From the NCBI GenBank assembly GCA_026706665.1, contig JAPOYI010000245.1:27810-91809 (forward strand): 64,000 bases of DNA, read 5' to 3'. Of this stretch, positions 2,428 to 7,173 are shown in pieces. Both the position numbers and the translations under genes were made by a program. Numbering within the stretch: position 1 is the first letter of the stretch; the number at the start of each line of letters is the position of its first letter. The notes below the pieces were generated by a model that was not told the DNA's origin, ran no database searches, and saw only the letters and a program-made list of their open reading frames with translations. The stretch is from Gammaproteobacteria bacterium. Lineage in GTDB: Bacteria > Pseudomonadota > Gammaproteobacteria > Pseudomonadales > Azotimanducaceae.

Positions 2428-3567
2428 TCAGGCGGTCGCCTCGGTGCCCATCACGATGCAGCCCGACGCGGCGAACATGCCACCGACGCCAAGGCACACC
2501 GAGACTTCCGCACCCGGAACCTGCGCTGGCGCGGTGCCGCGCATCTGGCGCACGCTCTCCTGCAGCGCGTACATGCCGTACATGCCCGAGTGCATGTAGG
2601 AGAGTCCGCCGCCGTTGGTGTTGAGCGGCAGCTTTCCTCCCGGTCGCGTGTTGCCGTCAGCGATAAACCCGGCCGCTTCGCCTTTCTGACAGAACCCCAG
2701 GTCCTCAAGCCCGTAAATCGGCAGGTGCGCGAACGCGTCGTAGACCATGAGGTGATCGACGTCGTCATGGCCGATGCCCGCGTCCCGCATGGCTTCCGAT
2801 CCGGCTACGCGAAAGGCGCGCGAGGAGCACAGATCCTGCATCTGGCTGACCATCGGACTCTCCGCACTTTCGCCGGTGCCGAGGATGTGCGCGGGGTTCT
2901 GGGGAAAGTCCTTCGCCCGTTCCGCCCGGGTCAGGATCAGGGCGCCCCCGCCGTCGGTGACAAGGCAACATTCGAGCAGGTGGAACGGGTAGGCGATCAT
3001 TCGCGAAGCGAACACGTCGTCCACCGTGATCGGGTCGCGATACGATGCGCGCGGGTTGCGTCCGGCCCATTCGCGCTGAACGACGCAAACCGTGGCGAGC
3101 TGCTCATGGGTCAGGCCGTATTCCTTCATGTAGCGCAGCACGGGGATCGTGAACATCGTCGTCGGCCCCATGGCGCCGTAAGGGTTTTCAAACTGCTGCG
3201 CGAGTCCGGCGGTCCCGCCGCCACGCGCTCCCCTGCCGATCCCGGAACGGCCGCTCTCGCCGTGGGTGATCAGAACCGTCTCCGCCTGTCCGGTCTGTAT
3301 GGCGGCCACTGCGTGCCGCACATGGATCATGAAGGAGCAGCCGCCCACGCTGGTCCCGTCGACCCAGCGCGGGGTGATGCCCAGGTAATGGACCAGTTCG
3401 ACAGGCGTCGAGCCCGCGGTCGCGACGCCGTCGATGTCCTTTGCCGTCAATCCGGTATCGGCGAATGCGTTGAGGGCCGCATCGGCATGCAGTTGCAGTT
3501 GGCTCGTGTCCGGAATGCGCCCGAGTTCGGTGGTTTCCGCCGCACCGACGATGGCGACGCCCGTCAT
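2428..3567 (-). CDS. thiolase-family acyl-CoA acetyltransferase (SCP-x-like)
   Basis: A 379-residue protein of the SCP2/lipid-transfer thiolase type. It opens with VAIVGAAETTELGR, has GGCSFMIHVRHAVAAIQTG in the region of the nucleophile loop, LNTNGGGLSYMHSGMYGMYA near the C-terminus, and ends with CLGVGGMFAASG. Members catalyse CoA-dependent thiolytic or condensation reactions in side-chain or fatty-acid breakdown. Its ATG overlaps the stop of the upstream DUF35 gene by 4 nt. That pairing is typical: the Zn-ribbon/OB-fold partner is thought to complete the thiolase or its acyl-CoA site. Which Cys is catalytic cannot be settled without alignment. Confidence 0.85.
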   Translation of the reverse strand: MTGVAIVGAAETTELGRIPDTSQLQLHADAALNAFADTGLTAKDIDGVATAGSTPVELVHYLGITPRWVDGTSVGGCSFMIHVRHAVAAIQTGQAETVLITHGESGRSGIGRGARGGGTAGLAQQFENPYGAMGPTTMFTIPVLRYMKEYGLTHEQLATVCVVQREWAGRNPRASYRDPITVDDVFASRMIAYPFHLLECCLVTDGGGALILTRAERAKDFPQNPAHILGTGESAESPMVSQMQDLCSSRAFRVAGSEAMRDAGIGHDDVDHLMVYDAFAHLPIYGLEDLGFCQKGEAAGFIADGNTRPGGKLPLNTNGGGLSYMHSGMYGMYALQESVRQMRGTAPAQVPGAEVSVCLGVGGMFAASGCIVMGTEATA

Positions 3568-4013
3568 GCTGATTGCTCCGCAGGCTTGAACAGGGGCACG
3601 CTGATCTCATCGTTCTGGCGTTCGAAGACGGCCTGCAACGGCATGTCGAGCACCAGTGCATCCGGTGTCTGCTCGCACTCGACGATGTTCGACATCATGG
3701 TTGGACCTTCTTCCAGCTTCACCAGGGCAATGCAGTAGGGGCCGTCGAACGACGGGTGCCGCCGGTGGTTGATCACGTAGCTCAGGAGCGTTCCGCGTCC
3801 GCTGGCGGTCACGACCTCCACGTTCTTCGATCCGCAGGCGGGGCAGAACGGGCGCGAGGGAAAATAGGTGCGGTCGCAGTCGAGACATCGCTGCAACCTG
3901 ATTTCGCCGTTGCGCGTGCCTTCCCAGAAGTGCGCTGTTTCCGGCGTGGGCGTTGGCAACGGACGCGGTTGTAAGTCGGCCAATGTACTCTCTCCGGCTA
4001 TCCGGGGTTGCAT
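3564..4013 (-). CDS. Zn-ribbon OB-fold (DUF35) thiolase partner
   Basis: A protein of about 149 residues with a rubredoxin-like zinc ribbon (LQRCLDCDRTYFPSRPFCPACGS, two CxxC pairs) and then an OB-fold (GRGTLLSYVINHRRHPSF...YCIALVKLEEGPTMMSNI). DUF35 proteins are encoded beside SCP2-type thiolases and bind the acyl-CoA substrate or stabilise the enzyme. The gene overlaps the thiolase by 4 nt, which predicts translational coupling. The start may be the ATG at 4013 or the GTG one codon upstream. Function is inferred from family and context. Confidence 0.85.
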   Translation of the reverse strand: MQPRIAGESTLADLQPRPLPTPTPETAHFWEGTRNGEIRLQRCLDCDRTYFPSRPFCPACGSKNVEVVTASGRGTLLSYVINHRRHPSFDGPYCIALVKLEEGPTMMSNIVECEQTPDALVLDMPLQAVFERQNDEISVPLFKPAEQSA

Positions 4014-4100
4014 CACAGGCCGGGTGTGCCCGGCGCTCGTTCCCCGGTTGGGTGGGCGAGAAAGTATCTTATGCGGGAGGCGCGGGAGGCAAGCGCCAAG

Positions 4101-4769
4101 CTATTCGTCGCGGGCGTCCACCTCCGCTTGGCGCAGGGCCGTATCGCCGATCCGGTCCGGCACTTCCCACTCGTGCCGGTGTGCCCTGCCGCCGTCGATG
4201 AGTTGCTGGATCGACTCCAGCGAGTGTTCCTCAAGCCTCAGGCCGGGGGCGTTCGGGTCGCGGCGGTCAGCGTGAAATTCGAGCACCTCGGCACCCGCAG
4301 GGCCGGCCTTGAACTTGTACGGCATGCCGTTCGGCAGGAACATGACCGAGCCCGCTCGCAGCTTGCGCCGGCCCAGGACGATCTCGCCGGCGATCACATA
4401 GTAGAGGCAGTCCCCGGAACCGGGATGACTGTGGCGAAACAGCGGGAAATTGGCCCCGAACCACACATGGGACAAACGCATTCCGTTGGGCGATTCGTCC
4501 TGGCCGAACAATCGCGTCGAAGTGATACCTCCCGAGAGCGCTTCGGCCATCTCGAGGATCTTCTCCTGCACGGGACCCTCGCCGTATTTCTCCGCCAGGG
4601 CGCTGTGCTCGAAGATCTGGAGCGTGCGGGACTCATCCGGGGTACCGCGGGAGGATGGCGTGGTGATCTCGGGATTCGCGCGAATCTCGAAAGGCCCGCG
4701 TTCGGAAACGAACCGCCTTCTTGTTCGTTCGCGAGGACGTTCGCGGGTGTGCCCGTGTGGTTCGGCCAT
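4101..4769 (-). CDS. tandem cupin protein, copy A
   Basis: A 222-residue single-domain cupin, third in transcription order of three paralogues. A charged, Arg-rich N-terminus leads to SERGPFEIRANPEI. The cupin core has LFRHSHPGSGD (HxH motif, with Asp where many cupins have Glu), YYVIAGEIVLGRRKLRAGSV and FLPNGMPYKFKAGPAG (motif 2, with Tyr where a metal-binding His is usual). The C-terminal tail, SLESIQQLIDGGRAHRHEWE, is conserved in all three copies. ATG lies 2 nt after the copy B stop. Metal binding is likely; reaction and substrate are unknown. No signal peptide is visible. Confidence 0.8.
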   Translation of the reverse strand: MAEPHGHTRERPRERTRRRFVSERGPFEIRANPEITTPSSRGTPDESRTLQIFEHSALAEKYGEGPVQEKILEMAEALSGGITSTRLFGQDESPNGMRLSHVWFGANFPLFRHSHPGSGDCLYYVIAGEIVLGRRKLRAGSVMFLPNGMPYKFKAGPAGAEVLEFHADRRDPNAPGLRLEEHSLESIQQLIDGGRAHRHEWEVPDRIGDTALRQAEVDARDE

Positions 4770-4771
4770 GG

Positions 4772-5428
4772 CTAGTTGTCTCCCTCGGCGTCCAGCTCCG
4801 CCTGGCGCAAGGCAGTATCACCGATCTTTTCGGGCACTACCCATTCGTGCTGGTGTGCCTTGCCTTCGTCGATGAGCTGCTGGACCGATTCCAGGGAGTG
4901 CTCCTCGAGCTTCAGCCCCGGGGCGTTCGGGTCGCCGCCGCCGGCTCGAAATTCGAGTACTTCGACTCCAGCGGGTCCTGCCTTGAACTTGTAGGGCATG
5001 CCGCTCGGCAGAAACATGACCGAGCCGGCTCGCAGTTTGCGCCGGCCCAGGACGAGTTCGCCGGCGACCACGTAGTAGAGGCAGTCCCCAGCCTTGGGAT
5101 GACTGTGGCGGAACAGCGGGTAGTGGGGCCCGAACCAGACGTGGACCAGGACCATGCCGTTGGGCGAGTCCTGCCCGAACAGCCGCGTCGAAGCAATGCC
5201 GGGCCATAGCGTCCTGACCATTTCGATCATCTTCCGCCGGACCGGCGCTTCCCCGCACTTTTCGGCGAGTTCGCTGCATTCAAAAGCACGGGCGCCGTAC
5301 TCGTCGTCAATCTCCTCGGCTTGGCGGGGTGGATTGATGGCGGGGTTGGCGGATATCTCGAATGGGCCGCGCTCGGAAGAGAACCGAACCCTTCTTCGTT
5401 GTCCTGCGGGCGCGTCGGGTTCGGCCAC
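4772..5428 (-). CDS. tandem cupin protein, copy B
   Basis: About 218 residues from a GTG at 5428 that shares one base with the TAG stop of copy C (TAGTG). The resulting N-terminus (VAEPDAPAG) aligns with the MAEP starts of copies A and C, so the longer ORF-track start is rejected. The core repeats the copy A motifs: LFRHSHPKAGD, YYVVAGELVLGRRKLRAGSV and FLPSGMPYKFKAGPAG, then GGGDPNAPGLKLEEHSLES. It is closest to copy A. The 1-nt overlap implies translational coupling, so the array is probably made as a set and may form hetero-oligomers. Enzymatic role unknown. Confidence 0.8.
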   Translation of the reverse strand: MAEPDAPAGQRRRVRFSSERGPFEISANPAINPPRQAEEIDDEYGARAFECSELAEKCGEAPVRRKMIEMVRTLWPGIASTRLFGQDSPNGMVLVHVWFGPHYPLFRHSHPKAGDCLYYVVAGELVLGRRKLRAGSVMFLPSGMPYKFKAGPAGVEVLEFRAGGGDPNAPGLKLEEHSLESVQQLIDEGKAHQHEWVVPEKIGDTALRQAELDAEGDN

Positions 5429-6090
5429 TATTTGGTTCTCCCTTCCAGTTCCGCCTGGCGTATCGTCGTATCGCCGCACTGCTCGGGGGCTTTCCACTCG
5501 TGCTGGTGCGCTTTCCCCGCGTCGATGATCTGCTGGATCGCTTCGATGGAGTCCTCCGCAAGCTTGATGATGGGGGCGCTTGGGTCACCCTCGCCGTCGG
5601 ACCGATACTCGAGTACCTCGGCCCCGGCAGGACCCGCCCTGAACTTGTACGGCATGCCATCCGGCAGGAAGATGACGGAACCAGCCCCCAGTCTTCGCGA
5701 ACCCAGGTAGATTTCGCCGGCGACCACACAGTAGAGGCAATCGCCAAATTTCGGATGGCTGTGGCGGGATAGCTGATAGTTTGCCCCCATCCACACATGG
5801 GACAGGCGCATGCCGTTGGGCGCGTCCTGGTCGAACAGCCGCGTCGAAGTGATGCCTCCCGCCGTTGCATGGGCCATCTCGACCATCTTTTCTTCGCCGG
5901 CCTTCCCGTATCTCTCGGACAGCGGGCTTTGCTCGTAGTTCTCGCGAACGCGGGCCCTGTCGACGGTGCCGCGCTTGCGGGGCTGGTTGAGGGTGGGGTT
6001 GGCGCGTATCTCGAACGGGCCGCGTTCGGAGATGTAACGTCGCGGCTTCTTCGGAGGTCGTTCTACCGGATGTTCTTGCGGTTCAGCCAT
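5428..6090 (-). CDS. tandem cupin protein, copy C (first in array)
   Basis: A 220-residue cupin starting at ATG. Motifs are LSRHSHPKFGD, YCVVAGEIYLGSRRLGAGSV and FLPDGMPYKFRAGPAGAEVLEY. The C-terminal region (EGDPSAPIIKLAEDSIEAIQQ) diverges more from A and B than they do from each other. Copies A and B therefore look like the younger duplication. It is the promoter-proximal member of the array, and its 5' leader is duplicated about 200 bp upstream beside a decayed fourth copy. No enzyme family beyond the RmlC-like cupin fold can be assigned. Confidence 0.8.
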   Translation of the reverse strand: MAEPQEHPVERPPKKPRRYISERGPFEIRANPTLNQPRKRGTVDRARVRENYEQSPLSERYGKAGEEKMVEMAHATAGGITSTRLFDQDAPNGMRLSHVWMGANYQLSRHSHPKFGDCLYCVVAGEIYLGSRRLGAGSVIFLPDGMPYKFRAGPAGAEVLEYRSDGEGDPSAPIIKLAEDSIEAIQQIIDAGKAHQHEWKAPEQCGDTTIRQAELEGRTK

Positions 6091-6157
6091 GGAGGCGCCC
6101 GATTGTTCCTATGGGGATGAGCATAGTCGCGAGAGCCGTGATCGGCAATCGGTCGGC
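6059..6157. repeat. cupin leader/start repeat, copy 1
   Basis: The start and leader of cupin copy C (TTCTTGCGGTTCAGCCAT followed by a GGGGATGAGCATAGTCGCGAG stretch) recurs at 6261-6353. It is a direct repeat of roughly 90-100 bp with several mismatches and small indels. It marks the boundary of a tandem duplication in which leader and gene start were copied together. Confidence 0.7.
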
Positions 6158-6167
6158 AGGACGATAC

Positions 6168-6287
6168 GTGCGAATCCAGCGAGTGCACCTCGAGCTTCAG
6201 GCCGGGGGCGTTCGGGTCCCCGCCCGCGGATGACTATGGCGATAAATTCTGCGGTTGTTCTTCTACCCGTTCTTGCGGTTCAGCCAT
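6168..6287 (-). pseudogene. decayed fourth cupin copy with its middle deleted
   Basis: Minus-strand sequence from ATG 6287 encodes MAEPQERVEEQPQ, matching the start of copy C (MAEPQEHPVERP). It then jumps directly to GGDPNAPGLKLEVHSLDS, the C-terminal segment shared with copies A and B. The whole cupin core is missing, and the tail after HSLDS no longer matches. Only about 120 bp survive. This shows the array once had at least four members. It cannot make a functional cupin. Confidence 0.8.
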
Positions 6288-6353
6288 CCTGATCCCCCTG
6301 TTCTCCCTACGGGGATGAGCACAATCGCGAGGGTGGCAATCCGCCAGTGGTCA
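6261..6353. repeat. cupin leader/start repeat, copy 2
   Basis: Second copy of the leader repeat, upstream of the decayed fourth cupin (TTCTTGCGGTTCAGCCAT, then CTACGGGGATGAGCACAATC). Any promoter for the array should lie in or upstream of this sequence, between it and the start of cysQ. Confidence 0.7.
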
Positions 6354-6366
6354 GTCAGGGTGCCCT

Positions 6367-7173
6367 TTAGGCAGGAGGCAGTCGTTCGATCCATGGAAAG
6401 GCCGGATCGCCGACACAGAAAAAGTCCGGGTTCAGGAGTGACGGCTTGGTGTTGTACGCGAGTTCGGAACCGTCGAAACGCAGTACGGCACCGCCTGCGG
6501 CGGTCAGTACCGCCTGCGCGGCCCCGGTGTCCCACTCCGAGGTGGGGCCCAGCCGTGGATAGAAGTCCGCCAGGCCCTCGGCCAGCATGCAGAACTTGAG
6601 GGAGCTGCCGACAGACTGTCGGGCGACGCGGCCGAAGGCGGCCCGCAGCGCGTCGAGATAACGCTCGAGCCGTCCACTACCGTGGCTGCGGCTAGCGACG
6701 ACTGTCAGCCCATGCGCTGGTGAAACGGCGCGGGTCCTGAGCGGCTGGCGACCGTCCCGCGTGGTCTTGTGGGCGACTCCCGAGATCACGTCGCCGAAGA
6801 ACACTTCTTCGCGCACCGGCACGCCGACCACGCCCGTCACCGGTCGGTTGGCATCGATCAGCGCGATGTTGACCGTGAAGTCGCCGTTTCGGTTCACGAA
6901 CTCCCTGGTGCCGTCGAGGGGGTCCACCAGCCAGTATCGATCCCAAGTCCGGCGGACCTCGAAATCCGCAGGTTCGGACTCTTCCGAGATGATGGGGAGA
7001 TCGGGCGTCAGGCGGCGCAGGCCGGCGACGATGATGTCGTGAGCGCGCAGGTCCGCGATGGTGACCGGCGAAGCGTCTGCCTTCCTCCGGACTTCGAATT
7101 CTCCCGCATAGACCTGCATGATCGCGTCGCCGGCCCGGCGCGCGAGGTCGATCAGTTCATCGGCCAGATTCAT
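6367..7173 (-). CDS. cysQ: 3'(2'),5'-bisphosphate nucleotidase CysQ
   Basis: A 268-residue member of the Mg-dependent inositol-monophosphatase superfamily. Metal motifs are in order: IISEESE (about residues 61-67), DPLDGTREF (84-92) and SEWDTGAAQAVL near residue 205. CysQ removes the 3'-phosphate from PAP formed during sulfate assimilation. The start MNLADELIDL at 7173 was chosen because the ORF-track extension upstream has no family character. It lies upstream of the cupin array on the same strand, with the decayed copy between, so joint transcription is possible but unproven. Confidence 0.88.
   Translation of the reverse strand: MNLADELIDLARRAGDAIMQVYAGEFEVRRKADASPVTIADLRAHDIIVAGLRRLTPDLPIISEESEPADFEVRRTWDRYWLVDPLDGTREFVNRNGDFTVNIALIDANRPVTGVVGVPVREEVFFGDVISGVAHKTTRDGRQPLRTRAVSPAHGLTVVASRSHGSGRLERYLDALRAAFGRVARQSVGSSLKFCMLAEGLADFYPRLGPTSEWDTGAAQAVLTAAGGAVLRFDGSELAYNTKPSLLNPDFFCVGDPAFPWIERLPPA

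Follow-up and report, generated by a model that had tools for sequence, protein, structure and literature searches.

The window analysed here is a 64,000-nucleotide stretch of DNA from an uncultured marine bacterium (genome G000). It contains an array of three intact cupin genes, A, B and C, together with the remnant of a fourth copy, D, and two copies of a leader element. The array lies between cysQ and the gene for an OB-fold/zinc-ribbon protein, likely a thiolase partner, which is followed by a gene for a thiolase-like protein. In coordinate order, the features of the locus are:

2428..3567, minus strand: thiolase-like protein (PF22691), downstream neighbour
3564..4016, minus strand: OB-fold/zinc-ribbon protein of the ChsH2/DUF35 type (PF01796 + PF12172), downstream neighbour
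4101..4769, minus strand: cupin copy C, 222 aa, ATG start; orthologues 91-92% identical
4772..5428, minus strand: cupin copy B, 218 aa, GTG start; orthologues 86-96% identical
5428..6090, minus strand: cupin copy A, which starts with ATG and has 220 aa; the first of the array's intact genes
6113..6132, minus strand: second leader copy, TCGCGACTATGCTCATCCCC, upstream of A
6170..6287, minus strand: remnant of cupin copy D, from alignment with the intact D of two sister genomes
6311..6330, minus strand: leader element, TCGCGATTGTGCTCATCCCC, preceding the D remnant
6367..7173, minus strand: cysQ, 3'(2'),5'-bisphosphate nucleotidase (TIGR01331), upstream neighbour; start codon provisional

The first-pass annotation of this DNA had proposed three neighbouring paralogous cupin genes, and the three intact minus-strand ORFs, which are 58-69% identical, confirm this. 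Pairwise identity is 58.6% for A-B, 61.6% for A-C and 68.2% for B-C, and tblastn comparisons between A, B and C gave E values of ~1e-76 or lower, which excludes chance as the source of their likeness. All three proteins carry motif 1 as HSHPxxGD and have a Tyr at the usual position of the motif-2 His. Copies A and B overlap by 1 nt (TAGTG), such that the first base of B is the last base of the TAG stop codon of A, and a gap of 2 nt separates the stop codon of B from the start codon of C. A consensus scan of the array region found no sigma-70-like promoter, and a terminator scan of the same region found none.

G004 and G005, both from the genus of G000, carry four intact copies in the same place and in the order D-A-B-C; the orthologues of copy A in these two genomes are 87-90% identical to it. 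The copies share a common origin and lie adjacent, on one strand and in the same order in all three genomes, which identifies them as tandem paralogues. An assembly artefact was also considered as the source of the array and rejected, because the four copies of sister species G004 are carried on a single-contig chromosome.

Alignment with intact D demonstrated that, in G000, what is left of this copy sits in fragments between A and cysQ. These are, in order, the leader, the start codon with 13-14 codons after it, an RHSHPR scrap of cupin motif 1, the segment GGDPNAPGLKLEVHSLDS, and the leader of A. The longer blocks share 86-98% nucleotide identity with the intact D of G005. Read from the old start codon, an in-frame TAG is reached after 17 codons, and the alignment needs at least three separate internal deletions, one of which has its junction at the short match GGCGG[G/C]GAC. 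The 20-nt leader TCGCGAYTRTGCTCATCYCC (with up to two mismatches) occurs in exactly two copies in each of G000, G004 and G005, where it precedes D (or its remnant) and A, and the duplicated unit therefore probably carried a leader. The intact D of the sister genomes and the twofold leader support the earlier description of the fourth copy as a decayed paralogue with a duplicated leader. That description was right about the remnant, which holds more than it listed, the motif-1 scrap having been overlooked.

The array genes group in a single clade (support 100/100) in a phylogeny of 51 homologues, and A, B, C and D are each monophyletic across the species having them (100/99 or better), indicating that the duplications are older than the split of these species. 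Within the array clade B branches first, then D, and the pairing of A with C is weakly supported (90/45). A and B had been thought to be the youngest pair; this was not confirmed, as the tree places B outside a clade of A, C and D (98/94). If these two letters were assigned in transcription order, they name the pair with the lowest identity; if in coordinate order, they name the most similar of the three pairs. Copy A has a dN/dS between orthologues (NG86) of 0.11-0.12, compared with 0.12-0.15 in B, 0.09-0.16 in C and 0.12 in D; these values lie within the range of two single paralogues, E and F, found elsewhere in the genome (0.06-0.20, NG86). All surviving array copies are thus under purifying selection. 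The suggestion that divergent copies are kept stands, several being retained under such selection in three species, and a check of the sister genomes for drift or stop codons left the array unrefuted, with copies intact and dN/dS at ~0.09-0.16. We conclude that the four-gene array had a single origin, which predates the species split. The three species, all of one genus, inherited the four copies D-A-B-C from their common ancestor; in the G000 lineage several internal deletions then destroyed D, and A, B and C stayed intact. This evolutionary history is well supported.

The flanking genes provide a comparison for the site itself. The cysQ gene is present in all nine genomes of the genus. In three of them (G003, G006 and G007), cysQ is followed by ~40 nt, the OB-fold gene and then the thiolase gene, and this gap holds no cupin; G002 and G008 also have cysQ, and the OB-fold and thiolase genes were not found beside it there. 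The stretch CGCATAAxATA, or one near-identical to it, precedes the OB-fold gene wherever that gene is present, and in the array genomes it lies downstream of C. Judging from these sequences, the cupin-free junction of G003, G006 and G007 looks like an empty site, and the simplest reading would place the array within a cysQ/OB-fold spacer older than itself. Two further observations concern these genes. The cysQ stop codon of G004 appears shifted (L032:8990-9030), making the protein a few residues longer towards the array, and further OB-fold copies with one in-frame stop each occur in G007 (L120, contig C158) and G003 (L121, contig C56).

Relatives of the array genes are otherwise solitary. A scan of 84,980 species genomes returned 43 loci with relatives, each of which holds one copy outside the array genomes. 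A homologue is present in 31 of the 207 genomes of the bacterial family to which the window belongs, and among these 207 adjacent copies occur only in G000, G004 and G005; other hosts are mainly marine proteobacteria, and phage records yielded no match. Homologues are thus not always single, with G004 and G005 each having four adjacent copies. Those outside the array clade are unclustered and lie in varied catabolic neighbourhoods, adjoining genes for CoA-transferase III, SDR, HpcH-type aldolase, Rieske oxygenase, PhyH, FMO or rhodanese proteins. A remote Rhodococcus relative also adjoins an OB-fold/thiolase pair. Neighbour clustering over ~45 loci revealed no partner gene shared by most members, and the neighbouring genes, as far as sequence can indicate, point to a catabolic role and to no particular reaction.

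Several single copies merit description. Paralogue E (L006:6409-7101, G000 contig C189) comes after a gene for a CaiB-type CoA-transferase and has an overlap with a short-chain dehydrogenase ORF; two tandem ORFs next to it resemble periplasmic solute-binding proteins by eye, and the gene order also occurs in G004 and largely in G005. Paralogue F (L007:6129-6791, G000 contig C181) immediately precedes a gene for an HpcH/HpaI-type aldolase and is divergent to a lipB-like ORF, and the pairing of F with the aldolase recurs in G004 and G005. A shorter remote relative of ~118 aa with the same motif-2 Tyr is encoded on G000 contig C45 (L108:3058-3411). The single homologue of a Porticoccaceae genome (L085:6864-7560) is split in two frames by an apparent frameshift, which could reflect either a pseudogene or an error in sequencing.

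Strict translational coupling of the copies had been proposed from their close spacing. The A/B and B/C junctions of G005 are also 1-2 nt, so the proposal holds for two genomes and fails in the third, as G004 has a 109-nt spacer with degenerate leader-like sequence between B and C. Nor is tight coupling a feature of the array as a whole, because a leader separates D from A in both genomes that keep D (G004 and G005). Coupled translation could serve to fix the ratios of A, B and C, and formerly of D, in one mixed cupin assembly, and the tight junctions in G000 and G005 and the retention of every copy in three species would agree with such a hetero-oligomer. Many cupins are dimers, which also counts in its favour. 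We consider it unlikely, however, given the G004 spacer, the solitary existence of E, F and the relatives in other genomes, and the loss of D in G000 while A, B and C keep the dN/dS of functional genes. This last observation argues against an obligate four-part complex of D, A, B and C, which is accordingly disfavoured; an assembly made of A, B and C alone is conceivable.

The array copies are 58-69% identical to each other yet 86-96% conserved between species, and at 57 sites each orthologue group has a fixed residue that differs between groups. Copy A departs from near-universal core residues at F111S, Y124C and F143I (numbering of C). By count, the group-specific sites show no enrichment in the barrel (27 of ~85 core versus 30 of ~100 other positions) and therefore lend no specific support to specialisation of the pocket. 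If all copies did the same job, the array could be an amplification in which extra product is useful and divergence is mostly neutral within functional limits. The candidate active-site residues are the same in all copies and one copy, D, could be lost, as this would allow; copies kept for dosage, though, are expected to stay alike or decay, and the identity between copies compared with that between species, along with the 57 fixed differences, makes such an origin distinctly improbable. A substrate series among the copies is plausible, and they are most likely specialised isozymes of an uncharacterised, putatively metal-binding cupin, a reading favoured mainly because single relatives evidently persist alone.

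Residues invariant in all 51 aligned homologues include H101, W103, H113, H115, D120, Y123, Y151, K152, E161 and E164 (numbering of copy C). The motif-2 Tyr is present in 51/51 and in seven remote homologues. Remote relatives that share it are encoded by Paraburkholderia, Cupriavidus, Sphingopyxis and Rhodococcus plasmids, by two further genomes and at another site in G000. What had been called a rare cupin variant is therefore the norm for this cupin branch. Cupin motif 1 is described as G(X)5HxH(X)3-4E/D(X)6G (PMC4437653; PMC3765361); in the array family HxH(X)4D is invariant in 51/51, and with its outer spacings the motif reads G-x7-HxH-x4-D-x7-G. Of motif 2, G(X)5PxG(X)2H(X)3N, the spacing is kept, the His is replaced by Tyr and the Asn is not kept. 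This mismatch does not bar membership of the cupin superfamily, as the motifs are less conserved across it than first believed (PMC3765361). The cupin beta-barrel is present in an AlphaFold2 model of C (pLDDT 88.6), together with an N-terminal helical extension and C-terminal helices, and the model matches PDB cupins at E values of 1e-7 to 1e-6. The best fold matches, with modest TM-scores, are 3cjx (a cupin of unknown function), RemF cyclase, KdgF, TM1459 and DMSP lyases.

Searches of Pfam and NCBIfam placed the array proteins in no family above cut-off, and PDB sequence searches with one copy and with the family profile returned nothing better than E 0.16, so that no activity can be transferred. 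The Cupin_2 family (PF07883) has a Pfam gathering cut-off of 27.2 bits; B and C score below it (17.0 and 18.9 bits), no match is listed for A, and 16 of the 51 array-family members have a sub-threshold match. Both families have a predicted beta-barrel, HxH with an acidic residue in motif 1, and G(X)5PxG spacing, whereas the array family differs from Cupin_2 in its motif-2 Tyr, in ~80 residues before the barrel and in helices after it. The atypical motif 2 without a His, the varying gene neighbours and the lack of a match to any characterised enzyme would suit small-molecule-binding or regulatory cupins without catalysis, the array then widening the set of ligands sensed or buffered. Such a role is very improbable in our judgement, since HxH, Asp, Tyr-Lys and Glu, invariant in 51/51 proteins, are typical of an active site, and no DNA-binding domain was recognised in the array proteins.

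Comparison with known cupins identified likenesses at several levels. The DMSP lyases DddQ, DddW and DddK share with the array family HxH with an acidic residue, a nearby Tyr and marine hosts. DddQ and DddK are fold matches to the C model (E ~1e-6), and DddQ is the best weak PDB sequence match of the family profile (E 0.21), which is no significant sequence relation. In contrast to DddW and DddQ, in which the motif-2 His is a metal-site residue (His121 and His163, respectively; PMC4437653), all array-family members have Tyr at this position. Because this His is missing, the array family cannot be counted among the known DMSP lyases, and the best weak catalytic lead in the PDB was rejected. The RmlC-like/ChrR-like cupins 3cjx and 3ebr are among the best PDB fold matches to the C model, as are two catabolic dioxygenases of this group, 3bal (acetylacetone dioxygenase) and 4p9g (2,4'-dihydroxyacetophenone dioxygenase); these four share 12-19% identity with it at an rmsd of ~10-11 A over aligned columns, and no sequence match. 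Remote homologues by sequence are the plasmid cupins of Paraburkholderia, Cupriavidus, Sphingopyxis and Rhodococcus (family-profile E 1e-32 to 1e-13 within the limited set that was searched), which have the same motif-2 Tyr and mostly lie in catabolic regions. They differ from the array in being single genes, are 31-40% identical over the matched part, and are likewise uncharacterised. A literature search for cupin arrays, or for cupins with thiolase or OB-fold partners, found nothing relevant.

With moderate confidence, we read the locus as tandem paralogous single-domain cupins, ancestrally D-A-B-C and now without D, which are putative metal enzymes and isozymes that differ in substrate. A single gene with its own leader would have entered between cysQ and the OB-fold gene, and the array would have grown from it by tandem duplication. 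For the chemistry, we infer enzymes whose probable metal ligands are the aspartate and both histidines of motif 1, the invariant Tyr-Lys standing in for the usual motif-2 His; metal binding is not assured, because cupin metalloenzymes usually have a motif-2 His, which these proteins lack. Substrates may be small oxygenated or acyl-type catabolic intermediates for which the isozymes would differ in preference, and a single transcript with closely spaced start sites may yield all the copies together. A bolder and rather doubtful extension is that these proteins are specialised members of an uncharacterised cupin enzyme class, with an HxH/Asp/Tyr-Lys active site performing a novel reaction on a series of related catabolic substrates, possibly compounds encountered in a marine host.

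The array is a well-preserved case of duplication followed by divergence, which is an ordinary evolutionary process and no new kind of system, in a family without a named-family match above threshold and without an assigned function. The chemistry of a motif 2 with Tyr for His is a question common to a larger group of uncharacterised cupins. The four-gene array, the decaying copy and the apparent empty site together form a clean natural experiment on duplication, divergence and loss in this family.
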